NCBI RefSeq assembly: GCF_001648895.1
Contig: NZ_LXUF01000001.1
Coordinates: 558,001-622,000 of the forward strand
DNA from: Methylovorus sp. MM2
Lineage (GTDB): Bacteria > Pseudomonadota > Gammaproteobacteria > Burkholderiales > Methylophilaceae
Direction of reading: 5' to 3'
DNA length: 64,000 nucleotides
Shown here: piece after piece, positions 363 through 21,608 of the stretch
How positions within the stretch are numbered: the first letter of the stretch is position 1
Layout of the letters: each line of letters begins with the position of its first letter
Notes under the pieces: generated by a model
Told to the model about the DNA's origin: nothing
The model's input: the letters and a program-made list of their open reading frames with translations, nothing else
The model's database searches: none
Made by a program: the position numbers and the translations under genes

Positions 363-1461
363 TGCAAAATGTCTGGTTGTAAAAGTGGGGTCAAGCCTGG
401 TTACCAACAATGGTGAGGGCCTTGATCAGGTTGCTATCGCGGCTTGGGCAAAGCAGATATCAGCCCTTGTTGCGCAGGGTAAGCAAGTGGTGCTGGTCTC
501 AAGTGGTGCTGTTGCCGAGGGCATGCAACGGCTTGGCTGGAGGAAGCGGCCAACTGCTGTAAATGAATTGCAAGCTGCTGCTGCCGTTGGGCAGATGGGT
601 TTGGTGCAGATGTATGAATCCTGCTTTAGTCAGCATGGTTTGCATACGGCCCAGATTTTGCTGACTCATGATGATCTGGCTGACCGTAAACGTTATTTAA
701 ATGCACGTACTACACTCAGGACATTGCTTGATCTGGGGGTTATCCCTATTATCAATGAGAATGATACGGTCGTTACAGATGAGATCCGTTTTGGCGATAA
801 TGACACCTTGGGCTCTCTGGTCGCTAATTTAATTGAAGCCGATGCGCTCGTTATTTTGACCGATCAATCTGGTTTATATTCGGCTGACCCGCGCAAGAGT
901 TCTGATGCGGAATTCATACAGTATGCGATTGCTGGGGCTGCCGATCTTGAGAAAATGGCTGGCGGGGCAGGTAGCAGTATCGGTAGTGGTGGTATGTTGA
1001 CCAAAGTGCTGGCGGCAAAGCGTGCGGCAAGAAGTGGAGCGCATACGATCATTGCTTCCGGTCGTGAGGCCGATGTGCTTGTGCGTTTAGCGAGTGGTGA
1101 AGCCATTGGTACCCATTTGCGCGCTGAGCAAATCAAAACCTTGGCAAAGAAACAATGGCTGGCAGATCATCTACGTTTAGCCGGTAAAGTGATTTTAGAT
1201 AGCGGTGCGATCAAGGCTTTGAAACAAGATGGCAAAAGCCTATTGCCTATCGGCGTGATTGCCGTTGATGGCGATTTTGAACGTGGGGAAGTGGTTGCTT
1301 GTGTAGACGAGAGCGGCAAAGAAGTCGCAAGAGGCTTGGTCAACTATGCAGCACACGAGACTGCCCGAATTTTGCGTCAACCATCCAGCGAAATAGAACG
1401 TATCCTTGGATATGTCGATGAAGCTGAACTGATTCATCGCGATAATCTGATTTTGATATAG
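343..1461 (+). CDS. proB: glutamate 5-kinase
   Basis: Phosphorylates L-glutamate to glutamyl 5-phosphate, the first step of proline synthesis in the cytoplasm. The 372-residue protein has the two-domain form: an amino-acid-kinase domain (roughly residues 8-258) with KVGSSLV near residue 14, NENDTV and the FGDNDTLGS substrate loop, followed by a PUA domain (about 270-350). The ATG at 343 has an AAGGAAGG ribosome binding site directly upstream, inside the end of obgE, so the overlap is real. proA is not next to it in this window. Identification is secure from motifs and length. Confidence 0.97.
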
Positions 1462-13496: not shown

Positions 13497-14366
13497 TTAT
13501 GCGGCTGCTCGTATCGAGGGTCTGAACGCCTTGGTGGGTTGCAGGTCTTTCGCGATAGCTGGCCTCCCCAAAAAGTAACCCTGCAATAAAGTGCTGCCAG
13601 CTTCAATGGCGATATCCAGTTGTGTTTGGGTTTCTATACCTTTAATCACGGGTTGCGCGCCTAAGTCACGGATGATGCCGACTAAGCCCGGAATGATCTT
13701 GCGAATGCGCGGGTTGCGCTCTGCCTCTTGAATCAGGCTGATATCCAGTTTCACGAACTCTGGTGAGAGCTTCCACAATCTATCCAGATTCGAGTGTTTG
13801 CGACCAAAGCCATCAATGGCGATGCGGTAGCCGCGATCACGGTAGTTATCAATCGCCTCGACCAGTAGTTTTTCCTGCTCTACAACGCTTTCCTGTATTT
13901 CAATCACCACGCGATCTGTCGGTACCGAGTGCGTATGTAAAATGCGCTCGAAGACTTTGCCGTGCGCATTTACACTTACCAAAAGTTTTGGGTGTACGTT
14001 CAGGAAGAGATAGCCGTTATCGTTATATATCTCCCTGAAATTCAATACATGCAATGTGCGGCACACGCGGTCAAACTTAACAAGTCGACCTGATTCTTCA
14101 GCAAAGCTGAAAGCAAACTCAGGGCTGATTGTTTGCAGGTCACCAAGTGATGGTCTTAATAGAGCCTCATGCCCGAAAAGATCACCGGCTTCGCTATCGT
14201 AGATCGGCTGAAAAGCGCTCTTGAGCTGTATGCCCAGAAATGTACTGGTGAATTCCCCTTCCAGCTTCTCATCCAGACCGTAATCTTCCAAGTCAAGGTA
14301 CAGCGCTTCACGCAGCTGCGACTTGAGTTGTTCTACATTCAGTGATCCTGTGTATTTCTCAGACAT
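13497..14366 (-). CDS. degenerate EAL-domain protein in the sulfate-uptake cluster
   Basis: 289 residues: a 45-residue helical N-terminus, then an EAL (c-di-GMP phosphodiesterase) fold. Retained: EAL at 67-69, N123, E156, D185, K206, D208, E245 and Q262. Changed: the second aspartate of the DDFG motif is Gly186 (IDGFG), and the glutamate of the usual AEGVET motif is Lys242 (IKGIET). Two metal/catalytic positions are therefore lost. From family knowledge such proteins usually bind c-di-GMP without cutting it or act as protein-interaction modules; that is inference here. It lies between a sulfate/thiosulfate-binding protein gene and cysT on the same strand, so a role in regulating sulfur uptake is plausible. 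No signal peptide or sensory domain is visible. Confidence 0.85.
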   Translation of the reverse strand: MSEKYTGSLNVEQLKSQLREALYLDLEDYGLDEKLEGEFTSTFLGIQLKSAFQPIYDSEAGDLFGHEALLRPSLGDLQTISPEFAFSFAEESGRLVKFDRVCRTLHVLNFREIYNDNGYLFLNVHPKLLVSVNAHGKVFERILHTHSVPTDRVVIEIQESVVEQEKLLVEAIDNYRDRGYRIAIDGFGRKHSNLDRLWKLSPEFVKLDISLIQEAERNPRIRKIIPGLVGIIRDLGAQPVIKGIETQTQLDIAIEAGSTLLQGYFLGRPAIAKDLQPTKAFRPSIRAAA

Positions 14367-15412: not shown

Positions 15413-15631
15413 TAAGGTTCCCCGGAAATTAAATGGCTGAAATATTGTTATGGCTGCAATATAGGCAAATCAATAAAGAATGTAAAAGAATATAAAAATA
15501 TATTGTTATATATAAATGTTATTTATTATTTAATAAAGCATCTTGTACAAATGTTGCTATTGAAATCAATAATTGTGTATAGTTATAACTAAATAGAATT
15601 TATATATAAGTAAAAATTATATATAAACGAC
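15413..15631. promoter_or_regulatory. AT-rich divergent promoter region, cysP-like / epsC
   Basis: About 220 bases, very AT-rich, with many TATA-like stretches, lying between two diverging sulfur genes. It should hold promoters for both sides, and by family knowledge a CysB-type LysR activator would bind such DNA; no exact operator can be assigned by eye. A 9-mer TATAACTAA at 15594-15602 recurs upstream of yezD (23449-23457). No ORF above 13 codons with a ribosome binding site is seen. Confidence 0.5.
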
Positions 15632-15667
15632 ACCTAGTAATAATCTAGGTTGAATATATAGTTAGCC

Positions 15668-15684
15668 GACCGGACAACCGGAAG
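15668..15684 (+). repeat. ACCGGA tandem element, copy 1 (epsC leader)
   Basis: GACCGGACAACCGGAAG: two ACCGGA units with an 8-base period. The same 17 bases with one change occur on the minus strand at 23099-23115 in front of the porin gene. May act as RNA (hairpin, exposed GGA motifs) or as DNA. Confidence 0.6.
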
Positions 15685-15714
15685 CCAGCGCGTCAAAAGA
15701 CGGCTGGCTTTTTT
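15682..15714 (+). terminator. intrinsic terminator 37 bases upstream of epsC
   Basis: Stem AAGCCAGC/GCTGGCTT plus an inner CGTC/GACG with an AAAA loop and one bulged G, then six T. It faces the epsC direction yet lies upstream of its start codon, with no gene before it on this strand, so it must end a leader or small RNA. Confidence 0.85.
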
Positions 15715-15750
15715 GTTTTCTGCATTTGGTTTTTATAGCGAGTAAAACGT

Positions 15751-16746
15751 ATGCCTGAATCATTAAATGAAGTGACATCTAGTTTGGATATATCCAAGAT
15801 CGTCGCTCAGCTTCGCGCGGTCAGACTTACGTCACTTGAAAGCCGTAATCGTCGTGAAAAACCGCCAAAATTACCATCGCGCAAAGTGCTCGGGAGCATC
15901 GTGGATGGATTAGGTGCGGCGCTTTTCCCCAATCGTTTAGGCATGCCGGATATCAAAGATGATGGTATCGATTATTTCGTTGGTCATGCCCTAGATGTTG
16001 CCTTAAGGGATTTGCTGGCTCAAGTGAAATTGGAGCTGCATTTTGCTTCGGACCTGAATGCCGAGGATGGTAATGCTCTTACTGCAAGTGGGACTAGCGC
16101 TAAAGAGATCGTAAGACAATTCGCTGAATCTTTACCTGCAATACGTATGTTGCTAGATAGCGATATTCGTGCGGCTTATGAAGGTGATCCTGCTGCGCGA
16201 AGTGTGGATGAAGTACTGGTTTGCTACCCGGGCATCACCGCAATTACGCATTATCGTTTAGCACATGTGCTGCACAAGCTGGGTGTGCCGTTGATCGCAA
16301 GAATCATCTCAGAGATCGCTCATTCGTCGACGGGTATCGATATACACCCGGGCGCGCAGATTGATGAGAGCTTCTTTATTGATCATGGTACGGGTGTGGT
16401 GATTGGTGAAACAACCATTATTGGTAAGCACGTGCGCATCTATCAAGCCGTTACGCTTGGTGCTAAGCGGTTCCCAACTGATGAGAACGGTGCATTGATC
16501 AAAGGGAACGAGCGTCACCCTATAGTAGAAGACGATGTTGTCATTTATGCCGGTGCAACTATTCTCGGACGTATCACCATCGGGCATGGTTCTGCCATCG
16601 GCGGCAATGTCTGGCTTACACACACTGTTCCACCCGGTAGCAATATCACGCAAGCGCAGATGTTAAGTAATCCCGTGCATCAAGCACAGCTAGCAGCAAC
16701 CACGAATTTATCAAACGGTAGTAAAGAACCAAAGCAGCAAAGCTGA
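15751..16746 (+). CDS. epsC: serine O-acetyltransferase (EpsC/SrpH type)
   Basis: Makes O-acetylserine from serine and acetyl-CoA, the carbon acceptor for cysteine synthesis. The 331-residue protein is longer than CysE of enterics; a helical N-terminal domain of about 170 residues precedes the left-handed beta-helix of hexapeptide repeats (GIDIHPGAQI, HGTGVVIGETTIIGKH, YQAVTLGAKRFP). It is the first gene of a plus-strand operon with the encapsulin shell (46 bases downstream) and its desulfurase cargo. The same trio occurs as srpH-srpI neighbours in cyanobacteria, where they are sulfur-regulated. The ribosome binding site is weak (GCGAG), and a terminator lies just upstream, so expression is probably controlled at the leader. 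Confidence 0.95.
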   Translation: MPESLNEVTSSLDISKIVAQLRAVRLTSLESRNRREKPPKLPSRKVLGSIVDGLGAALFPNRLGMPDIKDDGIDYFVGHALDVALRDLLAQVKLELHFASDLNAEDGNALTASGTSAKEIVRQFAESLPAIRMLLDSDIRAAYEGDPAARSVDEVLVCYPGITAITHYRLAHVLHKLGVPLIARIISEIAHSSTGIDIHPGAQIDESFFIDHGTGVVIGETTIIGKHVRIYQAVTLGAKRFPTDENGALIKGNERHPIVEDDVVIYAGATILGRITIGHGSAIGGNVWLTHTVPPGSNITQAQMLSNPVHQAQLAATTNLSNGSKEPKQQS

Positions 16747-16792: not shown

Positions 16793-17710
16793 ATGGCTGA
16801 TATTCATCAAGGACATACCGCATTGGGCGATGTAGCGGCACGGACGCTTGCCAATGCGACCAAAACGGTACCCATGCTTGGCACGATTACGCCACGTTGG
16901 TTGGTACACCTCATGCAGTGGGTGCCGGTTGAAGCTGGTATCTATCGTGTTAACAAAGTAAAAGATAACCATAGCGTCGCTGTTGACTGCTCTAATAAAG
17001 ACGAACGTGAATTGCCAGCGACTTTCGTTGATTACGAAGAATGGGGCCGTGAGTATGTATTGAACGCTGTGAATACAGTGGTTGATGTACATACACGTAT
17101 CTCTGATCTTTACAGCAGCCCGCATAACCAGATTCGTGAGCAGTTACGTCTGACTATTGAAACGGTTAAAGAGCGTCAGGAAAGTGAATTGATTAACAAC
17201 GCTGAATATGGCTTGTTGCACAATATTGCACCTGAGCAAAAGGTAAAGTCACGCACCGGCGCACCAACACCTGATGACTTTGATGAACTGATCTCACGCG
17301 TGTGGAAAGAGCCTGCATTCTTCTTGGCACATCCACAAGCGATTGCCGCATTCGGTCGCGAATGTACACGTCGTGGCGTTCCACCGCCTACAGTTGCGCT
17401 GTTTGGCTCACAATTCATTACTTGGCGTGGTATTCCATTGATTCCTTGCGACAAATTGCGGGTGACTAAAGGTAAGACGAATATTCTATTGTTGAGAACA
17501 GGTGAGAGCCGTCAAGGTGTCGTTGGTCTTTACCAACCTAATTTGCCTGGTCAACAAACCATGGGTCTTTCAGTGCGCTTTATGGGTATCAACCACAAGG
17601 CGATCGCTTCGTATCTTGTGTCCTTGTATTGTTCATTAGCTGTGCTGACTGAAGATGCGATCGCTGTGTTGGAGAATGTAGACGTAGGCAACTACTATGA
17701 CTACAAGTAA
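16793..17710 (+). CDS. srpI: family 2A encapsulin nanocompartment shell protein
   Basis: HK97-fold shell protein that self-assembles into a protein nanocompartment. The 305-residue sequence has the family 2A start (ADIHQGHTALGDVAARTLAN, then TKTVPMLGTITPRWL) and the VEAGIYRVNKV segment of the SrpI group. It lacks the inserted cyclic-nucleotide-binding domain of family 2B, as its length shows. In known systems the shell encloses a cysteine desulfurase and has been linked to sulfur storage. The ribosome binding site is AAGGAG. The 3' end overlaps the cargo gene by 14 bases, the expected shell-cargo pairing. Confidence 0.95.
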   Translation: MADIHQGHTALGDVAARTLANATKTVPMLGTITPRWLVHLMQWVPVEAGIYRVNKVKDNHSVAVDCSNKDERELPATFVDYEEWGREYVLNAVNTVVDVHTRISDLYSSPHNQIREQLRLTIETVKERQESELINNAEYGLLHNIAPEQKVKSRTGAPTPDDFDELISRVWKEPAFFLAHPQAIAAFGRECTRRGVPPPTVALFGSQFITWRGIPLIPCDKLRVTKGKTNILLLRTGESRQGVVGLYQPNLPGQQTMGLSVRFMGINHKAIASYLVSLYCSLAVLTEDAIAVLENVDVGNYYDYK

Positions 17711-19523
17711 CCTTCACGATCTATCTTCGTTCGAACCTGAAGCGATATTAGCTGCAGTGCCGGGCGAGCATCCGCGTATGGCGGCTGGTTTGGCGATAGC
17801 CCGAGAGGCTAGCGAAAGCGGCAATCTGGATGTAGATGCCTTGGCGAAAATTGCCAATGAAGTGTTCTCGGATACGATGCCACGTGAATCCGGTTTTCCT
17901 GCGACAGATTCTTTTTCGGATAATGCGACGATCTATAGCGCAGGTAGCCCGACGATTGGTTCGCAAGTGCCAGCAGCGCCGTCAGCGATATCGGCTGTTC
18001 CATCTGGCGCTGCTGCATTGCAATCCGGTTTGCCTGATCTTGGCGGTAGCAATCCCGGCAGCATTGGCGCGCTTAATGTTTCGCCATTGCAATATACGCC
18101 GGACTTGATTGGTGAGGTTGATATCGCCAAGCTACTAGGTGATGTCGCGATTCCTTATGAGAACGAGCTAAAAGGTCTCTTTGGCGCTCAGCCGACTGCG
18201 ATTCCAACAACGCAGAAGACTGGTACAAGTAGTCCTTTCTACTTTTTACAGACATCTGATAACAGTTTGCAAGCAGCGCCCGCTGCGCATCCGCCGTTTG
18301 ATGCCAATCTCGTACGCAAGGATTTCCCTATCTTGCGTGAATTGGTTAATGGCAGACCATTGATCTGGTTCGATAATGCAGCTACGACACAGAAACCGCA
18401 GGCAGTGATCGATCGTATCTCATACTTTTACCAGCATGAGAACTCGAATATTCATCGTGCGGCACATGAGCTAGCTGCGCGCGCTACAGATGCATATGAA
18501 GGTGCGCGTGAGACGGTTCGTCGCTTCATCAATGCGCCTTCAATCGATAACATCGTGTTCGTACGTGGTACAACTGAAGCGATCAATCTGGTTGCCAAGA
18601 CTTGGGGCAAGAAGCATATCGGCGCTGGGGATGAGATCGTTATTTCTCATCTTGAGCATCATGCGAATATCGTCCCGTGGCAACAGTTGTGTCAGGAAAC
18701 AGGCGCCAAGTTAAAAGTGGCACCAGTCGATGATAGCGGCCAAGTCTTACTTGCTGAGTATCAACAGCTACTGACTGCTAGAACCAAGCTTGTTTCATTC
18801 ACGCAGGTGTCCAATGCGCTTGGCACGGTTACGCCTGCGCATGAGATGATCGAGATGGCACATCGGGCAGGTGCGAAAGTATTGCTTGATGGCGCACAGT
18901 CAATATCTCACATGCATACTGATGTATTGGGGCTGGATTGTGACTTCTTTGTCTTTTCAGGACACAAAGTGTTTGGCCCAACTGGTATCGGTGCGTTGTA
19001 TGGAAAATCCGATGTGTTGAACGATATGCCTGCTTGGCAAGGTGGCGGCAATATGATTCAAGACGTCACTTTTGATAAGACCGTTTACCATGAAGCACCA
19101 GCAAAGTTTGAAGCAGGTACGGGCAATATTGCCGATGCTGTTGGGCTTGGTGCTGCGCTTGAGTACGTTGAGCGTTTGGGCATTCATAATATCGCCAGAT
19201 ACGAGCATGAATTGCTTGCCTATGCCACTGATGCCATGTGCAAAGTAGCAGGCTTGCGCTTGATCGGAACGGCTAAAGAAAAAGCCAGTGTCTTGTCATT
19301 CACGCTAGCAGGCTATCAGAGTGAAGAAGTTGGCGCTGCTTTGAACAAAGAAGGCATCGCTGTTCGCTCAGGGCATCATTGTGCACAGCCTATCCTTCGT
19401 CGTTTTGGACTGGAAAATACAGTGCGGCCATCTTTAGCTTTTTACAATACGACTGCTGAGGTTGATGTATTAGTGAACGCCTTGCATAAGCTATCTTCTG
19501 CAAAAGCGATCACTGGGTTATAA
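17697..19523 (+). CDS. encapsulin cargo cysteine desulfurase with N-terminal loading domain
   Basis: 608 residues. Residues about 201-608 form a group II (SufS-like) PLP-dependent cysteine desulfurase with the PLP lysine K424 in SGHKVFGPTG and the catalytic C562 in RSGHHCAQP; it takes sulfur from cysteine to leave alanine and an enzyme persulfide. Residues 1-60 look helical. Residues 61-200 are Pro/Ala/Ser/Gly-rich and probably disordered, with islands GLPDLGG (111-117), SPLQYTPDLIGEVDIAKLLG (129-148) and SSPFYFLQT (178-186). By family knowledge this N-terminal part directs the enzyme into the encapsulin; which island does so is inference. Start overlaps the shell gene. No SufE partner is nearby. 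Confidence 0.95.
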   Translation: MTTSNLHDLSSFEPEAILAAVPGEHPRMAAGLAIAREASESGNLDVDALAKIANEVFSDTMPRESGFPATDSFSDNATIYSAGSPTIGSQVPAAPSAISAVPSGAAALQSGLPDLGGSNPGSIGALNVSPLQYTPDLIGEVDIAKLLGDVAIPYENELKGLFGAQPTAIPTTQKTGTSSPFYFLQTSDNSLQAAPAAHPPFDANLVRKDFPILRELVNGRPLIWFDNAATTQKPQAVIDRISYFYQHENSNIHRAAHELAARATDAYEGARETVRRFINAPSIDNIVFVRGTTEAINLVAKTWGKKHIGAGDEIVISHLEHHANIVPWQQLCQETGAKLKVAPVDDSGQVLLAEYQQLLTARTKLVSFTQVSNALGTVTPAHEMIEMAHRAGAKVLLDGAQSISHMHTDVLGLDCDFFVFSGHKVFGPTGIGALYGKSDVLNDMPAWQGGGNMIQDVTFDKTVYHEAPAKFEAGTGNIADAVGLGAALEYVERLGIHNIARYEHELLAYATDAMCKVAGLRLIGTAKEKASVLSFTLAGYQSEEVGAALNKEGIAVRSGHHCAQPILRRFGLENTVRPSLAFYNTTAEVDVLVNALHKLSSAKAITGL

Positions 19524-20597: not shown

Positions 20598-21608
20598 TTA
20601 CTTCAGGTAAATCTGGTCAAACGTACCGCCATCTGCAAAATGCTCTTTTTGTGCCTTTTGCCAGCCACCGAACTCTTTGTCGACTGTGATCAAAGTTACT
20701 TTAGGGAATTGCTTCTCATATTTCTTGATAGCAGCCTCACCAGTTGGGCGATAGTAGTTCTTACCAGCAATGTCCTGACCTTCATCAGAGTACAGGTACT
20801 GCAAGTAAGCTTCTGCTACAGCACGTGTCTTGCGACGATCAACAACCTTGTCTACAACGGTGATGGTTGGCTCAGCCAATATCGAAAGTGAAGGCACGAC
20901 GATATCGAATTTATCTGGACCCAATTCTTTTTGAGCCAAGAAAGCTTCGTTTTCCCAAGCCAGCAAGACGTCGCCGATACCGCGCTCTACGAATGTCGTA
21001 GTAGATCCACGAGCACCAGTATCAAGCACAGGCACGTTCTTCAAGATCTTGCCTACGAACTCTTTAGTCTTGTTTTCATCGTTACCATATTTCTTTTGAG
21101 CATATGCCCATGCAGCCAAGTAATTCCAACGTGCGCCACCTGATGTTTTAGGATTAGGCGTAATCACGGAGATACCAGGTCTAGCAATGTCATCCCAATC
21201 CTTGATGCCTTTTGGGTTGCCCTTGCGAACCAGAAACACAATGGTGGATGTGTATGGTGCGCTGTTGTGTGGCAAACGAGTCTGCCAATCCTTAGGGATT
21301 AACTTACCCTTCTCATAAAGTTGATCAACGTCAAAAGCCAGTGCTAGTGTCGCTACGTCAGCATCAAGACCATCGATGATGGCGCGAGCCTGTTTACCTG
21401 AACCGCCATGTGAAGCCTTGATCGTGACATTGTCACCCGTCTTGGCTTTCCAGTACTTCGCAAATGCAGCGTTATAGTCCTGGTAAAGTTCACGTGTCGG
21501 ATCATACGAGACATTAAGCAATGTCACGTCTGCGGCACTTGCGATGATTGGATTCGCAAGTGCCAGCGCCGCTATCAGTGCGCTTAAGCCTAAAAATAAT
21601 GTTTTCAT
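20598..21608 (-). CDS. sbp: periplasmic sulfate-binding protein, Sbp-like
   Basis: 336-residue precursor with a signal peptide at about 1-25. It carries [60 protein letters not shown] and [20 protein letters not shown], which agree with Sbp (sulfate) rather than CysP as I remember the enteric sequences. It delivers sulfate to CysTWA; no second permease/ATPase set is present here, so it probably shares the one encoded at 10485-13334. It sits 32 bases after the porin gene, which could admit the anion through the outer membrane. Confidence 0.94.

Follow-up and report, generated by a model that had tools for sequence, protein, structure and literature searches.

Why a strong intrinsic terminator should stand in front of the first gene of an operon is the question raised by a leader in the DNA analysed here, a 64,000-nucleotide stretch from Methylovorus sp. 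MM2 (the window, to which coordinates refer unless another locus is named). An earlier note, made from the sequence alone, had read the leader at 15632-15719 as having the layout of a transcription attenuator or riboswitch under ligand or protein control. This layout is supported by conservation, by covariation and by a search for leader peptides that found none. The gene after the leader, named epsC in that note, encodes an EpsC-type serine O-acetyltransferase and heads a family 2A encapsulin operon (Table 1). We consider it likely that a shorter element, 15665-15719, works in cis as a transcription attenuator for sulfur genes, which would be ON when sulfur is scarce through an effector that holds a small helix, P1.

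Table 1. Features of the leader and its operon in the window, and second copies of the element in relatives
Feature	Location	Strand	Description and basis
A/T-rich motif TGTAAAAGAAT	15481-15491	+	sbp-epsC intergenic, outside the RNA; recurs in family genomes
Likely leader promoter	15554-15583	+	TTGCTA, 18 nt, TATAGT; scan match at 9 of 12 positions
Upstream hairpin ACCTAG...CTAGGT	15632-15650	+	folds here; outside the conserved block
Proposed antiterminator hairpin	15665-15685	+	P1 + P2; conserved and covarying; forms in truncated folds, displaced in full ones
P1	15665-15667 with 15683-15685	+	third pair is a C.A mismatch
Internal loop	15668-15669, 15682	+	GA/A
P2 with loop	15670-15681	+	CCGG-ACAA-CCGG; 15670-15673 with 15678-15681, loop ACAA 15674-15677
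Intrinsic terminator	15683-15719	+	stem 15683-15709, U-rich tail to 15719; shares 15683-15685 with P1; fold, compensatory changes
EpsC-type serine O-acetyltransferase	15751-16746	+	NF041874, 163 bits (cut-off 150)
Family 2A encapsulin shell protein	16793-17710	+	NF041162, 541 bits (cut-off 380)
Cysteine desulfurase, encapsulin cargo	17697-19523	+	NF041166, 900 bits (cut-off 800)
Second copy, locus L101	3951-4008
Second copy, locus L102	4265-4316
Second copy, locus L103	3569-3618
Second copy, locus L087	1052-1101

A hairpin and an overlapping terminator in the epsC leader

Folding of 15632-15719 gave -31.7 kcal/mol against a shuffle mean of -18.0 (sd 3.0; z -4.6), with none of 200 shuffles equally good, which confirms the strong intrinsic terminator claimed before epsC. 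The terminator was missed by a simple terminator scan and recovered by folding; its 10-bp stem, which carries one bulge and is capped by an AAAA loop, is followed directly by TTTTTTGTTTT. Both of the other two hairpins described in the leader do fold, but the one at 15632-15650 is not conserved in relatives. The conserved element is a 21-nt hairpin together with the terminator that overlaps it. The hairpin has the consensus 5'-GCU-GA-CCNG-ANNN-CNGG-A-AGC-3', with three pairs in P1, a GA/A internal loop and four pairs in P2. The three bases at its 3' end also form the base of the terminator 5' arm (AAGCCAG.../...CUGGCUU), and because the 3' strand of the hairpin is used twice in this way, the two folds are mutually exclusive. 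The earlier note had proposed a different competition, between AGCCG (15664-15668) and CGGCT (15701-15705). That pairing is present in the window but is not a shared feature of the leaders: the 25 nt upstream and the 3' arm of the terminator can pair over at least 6 bp in 36 of 63 Methylophilaceae leaders (57%) versus 39% of shuffled sequences, which is only somewhat above chance. The conserved competition is that of P1 with the base of the terminator stem.

The absence of a leader peptide was borne out by a reading-frame search with ATG, GTG, TTG and CTG starts, in which no frame of at least 6 codons starts within 15585-15703 and ends before 15760; the four frames found start at 15704-15726. 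A leader-peptide attenuator, for which a short ORF would precede the terminator, was rejected on this ground. The leader transcript would start near 15590, judging from the likely promoter sequence upstream. The promoter scan listed 6 sites versus 5.9 in shuffles, which is no excess; the -10 motif GTATAnT, at 15577 in the window, occurs upstream in 29 of 63 leaders versus 11% of shuffles. The earlier note had regarded a promoter downstream of 15719 as evidence against its reading; the scan listed no + strand promoter-like site between 15719 and epsC, the candidate lying upstream of the leader. In 35 of 59 family genomes the motif TGTAAAAGAAT lies no more than 600 nt upstream of the element, versus 0.06% of shuffled upstream sequences, and it is possibly a site of a DNA-binding sulfur regulator.

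Upstream of the element, sbp is divergent, and the genes after it on that strand are an EAL-domain gene, cysT, cysW and cysA. The EAL-domain gene (13497-14366) lies between sbp and cysT, with the sbp-EAL order kept in many relatives, and cyclic-di-GMP-type signalling may possibly be tied to sulfate uptake through it. A second sbp (20598-21608) is found about 1 kb past the encapsulin operon on the opposite strand.

Conservation of the element in Methylophilaceae

A 161-base query against 60 relatives gave one conserved block, about 15660-15723 of the window, in 14 other genomes (L002-L014, L020), in 12 of which it precedes epsC and in 2 the encapsulin gene. A covariance model, R1, was built from 15 sequences and run on 187 Methylophilaceae genomes with stricter filters and 30 candidates scored per genome. 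It gave 61 matches of at least 45 bits spread over 59 genomes. The next gene is EpsC in 56 of the 59, counting one genome with a fragment only (G018) and one with a partial gene at a contig end (G116); it is the encapsulin gene in two (G025, G008), and in G185 the contig ends. Within the window the element scores 75.5 bits with R1 and the next candidates 21.9 (59183) and 20.4 bits (3157), so that no second copy is indicated there.

Family 2A encapsulin is encoded in 62 of the 187 genomes, and in 57 of these 62 the element lies directly before epsC or the encapsulin gene (56 by R1, and G108 by a second model, R2, at 48.8 bits). In three encapsulin-bearing genomes (G017, G020, G030) no element was found in the fetched stretch at the operon, which counts against the attenuator reading; in another, G208, the contig ends inside epsC. 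G090 has the hairpin GCTGACCAGTCCGCTGGAAGC by itself (L338, about 906-940, minus strand): it stands 27 nt ahead of the encapsulin start codon, no terminator was seen with it, and it could be either a translational version or a relic. In G018 (L098, 2796-2848) the element and an epsC fragment are kept while encapsulin 2A was not found in the genome, suggesting a decaying locus.

Four genomes hold a second copy of the element, with scores of 49.2 (G010), 48.3 (G210), 37.8 (G024) and 36.7 bits (G001). By eye, each of these copies follows the end of cysA and is itself followed by an outer-membrane protein gene (FadL/TodX-like). The protein from the G010 locus (L213), the one of the four that was compared, clusters with L197, which is Toluene_X/FadL by Pfam. 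This arrangement suggests that the porin takes up a sulfur compound.

Occurrence beyond the family

R1 was also run on 399 genomes of the order, own-family members included, with stricter filters and 14 candidates scored per genome. The listed matches above 37 bits are all from the family itself, and the best one outside, in G252 (36.1 bits), covers a terminator only. Since true members elsewhere can score 30-50 bits with R1, this result is no proof of absence from the order. A degenerate pattern of hairpin plus terminator, scanned over GTDB species genomes, gave at least 118 matches in at least 117 stretches. The central P2 pair, which the pattern left free, is complementary in 114 of the 118 matches listed, and in 86 of the 89 listed outside Methylophilaceae-like loci. 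The organisms among the matches listed include Methylomonas, Methylobacter, Crenothrix, Geobacteraceae, Nitrospirota and Planctomycetaceae, the Firmicutes Paenibacillus, Bacillus, Gorillibacterium, Heliophilum, Pelosinus and Clostridium tyrobutyricum, and, with single matches, Brocadiaceae, Armatimonadetes and Auribacterota. Two of the 118, in Aquabacterium (L119) and Pseudomonas (L140), look like chance and are kept in the counts. Tandem copies are seen, for example, in Geomonas (L267), Geomesophilobacter (L274, L276), Pelosinus (L271) and Paenibacillus (L289).

Alignment of 89 pattern loci with R1 gave 102 matches, none of which was dropped (set A4). R2 was built from this set and run on 20 chosen element-bearing genomes. 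With an E value of at most 0.01, a single genome gave as many as 22 matches, plain terminators being among the weaker ones. Set A6 comprises 66 fetched places, with 93 aligned matches and 82 distinct rows.

Covariation and alternative folds

In the first 15 sequences alone, covariation was seen in the upper terminator stem only and P2 was invariant. An alternative antiterminator pairing, GCUG/CAGY, showed no double changes in these sequences, and P1 (GCU/AGC) was preferred to it after diverged copies were obtained. Among 63 family elements, 97.4% of the cells of terminator and P2 are paired and 12 of the 15 pairs are changed on both sides; for P1 and P2 the values are 98.8% and 4 of 7 pairs. 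None of 500 shuffles came as high in either case. The P2 variants are CCGG/CCGG, CCAG/CUGG, CUAG/CUAG and CCGU/ACGG, with the central pair broken in three elements; P1 occurs as GCU/AGC, GCU/GGC and GCC/GGC, with a C.A third pair in two elements, the window included.

Changes on both sides were found in all 15 terminator/P2 pairs and in 6 of 7 P1/P2 pairs of set A4. In A6, 99.6% of the P1/P2 cells are paired and 5 of 7 pairs have double changes, a count reached by 93 of 500 shuffles, none of which reached the covariation score or the percentage paired. Further variants in A6 are UCAG/CUGA and, once, GCGG/CCGC in P2, and ACU/GGU and GUC/GAC in P1; A5 (15669 in the window) is kept in 92 and A18 (15682) in all 93 of the matches. 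It should be mentioned that the non-family sequences were chosen by a pattern or model fixing part of the hairpin and that model-made alignments favour the model structure; P1 is in neither R1 nor R2. The earlier note would have taken a lack of conservation or covariation of the hairpins in relatives as speaking against it. Both are strong for the terminator, for P2 and, in the wider sets, for P1. Homologous leaders hold a conserved structure, but one shorter than 15632-15719; no common upstream hairpin was found among the leaders, whose folds differ there from one to another.

These changes also bear on a reading in which CCGG-N4-CCGG would act at the DNA level, as an operator, and the terminator would do no more than shield the operon from transcription entering from upstream. 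In favour of it, most family members have an almost unchanged, palindromic hairpin. However, the stem letters change while pairing is kept (for example CCAG/CUGG, CUAG/CUAG, UCAG/CUGA and GCGG/CCGC), which is the mark of an RNA, and the family's upstream neighbour sbp usually points away from the element. We regard this reading as highly improbable, more so than any other considered here.

The competition between the two folds was followed in RNAs of different length. When folding ended just past the hairpin, P1 (at least two pairs) and P2 each formed in 59 of the 63 family elements; in full-length folds the terminator arm was paired in all 63 and P1 in none. P1 likewise formed in 98 of 101 truncated folds of A4 and 89 of 91 of A6, and in zero and one full folds, respectively (one and two short rows omitted). 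The truncated fold of the window contains P2 and the first two pairs of P1. The element therefore has both folds expected of an attenuator, a GC-rich hairpin with a U tract before the first gene and an alternative fold that excludes it. The weakness of P1, with three pairs only and the third a C.A mismatch in the window, was counted against the attenuator reading.

Many sulfur riboswitches are OFF switches, and the truncated RNA folds P1 unaided. Both points are compatible with an opposite sign of regulation, in which P1 is the default and a high-sulfur effector pulls the RNA into the terminator. Against this, the terminator wins unaided in every full-length family fold. Conservation is also highest in P1-P2 rather than in the terminator loop, which makes the antiterminator the apparent binding site. 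The opposite sign is, in our judgment, improbable.

Genes downstream of the element

An ORF of at least 80 aa starts within 500 nt of 110 of the 118 matches listed, with a median offset of 49 nt, and 88 of these 110 first genes start within 110 nt. Sulfur-assimilation clusters account for 79 of the 110 among the matches listed: cysK (38), epsC (29), tauD-like (3), encapsulin (2), cysJ (2), sbp (2), sulfonate/taurine-type permease (2) and sulfurtransferase (1). The others listed are NifH-, NifD- and NifB-like genes (8), a NorR-like sigma-54 activator (4), porins other than FadL-like (3), FadL-like proteins (2), methyltransferases (2), and one each of MtaA/CmuA, a corrinoid protein, OsmC, DUF2490, an HAE3 transporter, CobW, CWB2 and DUF2292; the remaining 4 carry no assignment or scan. 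First genes were grouped by blastp cluster, with one to three members scanned per larger cluster, and epsC was recognized by tblastn to the window protein.

In the accessible text of PMC10418091, MarHDK homologues cluster with MtaA-like methyltransferases and corrinoid proteins. Because of that clustering, the 8 nitrogenase-like first genes among the matches listed are probably methylthio-alkane reductase (Mar) genes. At the 66 places in multi-copy genomes, 64 first ORFs were found and 54 scanned, some overlapping the first set. Their commonest families are nitrogenase component 1 (6), ABC ATPase (5), PALP of cysK type (4), NMT1 (4), NifH (3), radical SAM (3), Cys/Met PLP enzymes (2) and rhodanese (2). 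Some downstream genes are not evidently related to sulfur (a copper-type P-type ATPase, a glycerol dehydrogenase-like protein, CWB2 and a hydrolase), which counts against the attenuator reading. The copper-type P-type ATPase follows the element in Clostridium tyrobutyricum (L270, 301-358) and is poorly explained by a sulfur regulon.

The gene context weighs on a further alternative, that the leader chiefly yields a trans-acting small regulatory RNA, about 60-130 nt long, with its 3' end at the terminator. A terminated leader would be such a product, and its core is highly conserved within the family. Nevertheless, the element lies immediately before sulfur genes, several copies precede different sulfur operons in one genome, and the stem sequence drifts while pairing is kept. 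A small RNA is thus less likely than an attenuator, and we hold it to be very unlikely.

Proposed mechanism

From the computed folds and their mutual exclusion, conservation, covariation and gene context, we infer antitermination, its ON direction and an effector. RNA polymerase would first make the 21-nt hairpin, with P1 and P2 flanking the GA/A internal loop. Without help, P1 would yield to the terminator, which takes the P1 3' strand, and transcription would stop near 15719. When sulfur is scarce, the effector would keep P1 closed, the terminator would lose the pairs next to its U tract, and the disarmed terminator would let the epsC-encapsulin-desulfurase operon be transcribed. Since P1 and the terminator exclude each other, any factor that steadies P1 should allow read-through. 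The ON direction at low sulfur is expected because the family 2A encapsulin (SrpI) and its desulfurase are raised by sulfate starvation in Synechococcus, as given in the accessible text of PMC8049743, and because most of the other genes scavenge sulfur.

A search for two known families of antitermination proteins, ANTAR and CAT_RBD, yielded no effector gene, which counts against the attenuator reading. As effector we favour an RNA-binding antitermination protein, at about an even chance. A starvation metabolite such as O-acetylserine is a possible but less probable candidate. The latter would make the element a riboswitch class of about 21 nt in methylotrophs, Geobacteraceae, Nitrospirota, Planctomycetes and Firmicutes that directly senses a starvation metabolite of the O-acetylserine or N-acetylserine type, a reading we put forward tentatively; such a switch would turn on sulfate, sulfonate and methylthio scavenging, cysteine synthesis and sulfur storage in encapsulin. 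In either form, the attenuator would represent an apparently undescribed layer of sulfur control common to bacteria of several phyla. One regulon would join the encapsulin sulfur store, cysteine synthesis, uptake of sulfate and sulfonate and probably the methylthio-alkane reductase genes. The element could serve as a marker for finding new sulfur-scavenging genes, and the identity of the sulfur signal would be testable in one short RNA.

Comparison with known systems

The earlier note had suggested a search against Rfam. At the gathering score, Rfam 15 matched no family apart from one tRNA, and relaxed thresholds gave nothing credible, so that no known class is matched and a curated riboswitch or leader was rejected. 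The element is like SAM, SAH and other sulfur riboswitches, and the dauA candidate, in being placed to control sulfur-related genes from the leader; unlike SAM, SAH and the other sulfur riboswitches, it has no match in Rfam 15. The sulfate-linked dauA candidate differs in being a three-stem junction of Streptomyces that includes the Shine-Dalgarno sequence, as described in the accessible part of PMC11109978. With the SrpI operon of Synechococcus the window shares a shell protein and a cysteine desulfurase cargo, and the text of PMC8049743 available to us makes no mention of a leader RNA for that operon.

The targets of ANTAR proteins (NasR, AmiR, EutV) also have an upstream hairpin overlapping a terminator. 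ANTAR sites consist of two hairpins with hexanucleotide loops carrying A at position 1 and G at position 4, according to the accessible part of PMC3369931, whereas the element has one conserved hairpin with a loop mostly of 4-5 nt, typically ANNN. An ANTAR domain is found in 16 of 17 element-bearing genomes; the one lacking it is Paenibacillus S150, where R2 gave 13 matches. Given this and the different site shape, an ANTAR protein was judged a poor fit as effector. A description of the element was not found in open-licence full text, including RNA-discovery papers, in so far as that text was available (PMC10418091, PMC11109978, PMC6429828, PMC3369931 and PMC8049743 among it; most subscription literature lies outside this scope).

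As far as we have seen, the RNA family and its sulfur regulon have not been described; the kind of device, an antiterminator hairpin overlapping a terminator, is already known. In the RAT antiterminators of the BglG/SacY/LicT systems, a small hairpin with an internal loop overlaps the 5' arm of an intrinsic terminator. The corresponding RNA-binding domain, CAT_RBD, is present in 4 of 17 element-bearing genomes and missing in 13, which makes a BglG-type protein a poor fit as effector. The element resembles RAT in its small internal-loop hairpin overlapping the terminator 5' arm, and differs from it in the genes that follow, which are sulfur genes here and sugar genes for RAT.
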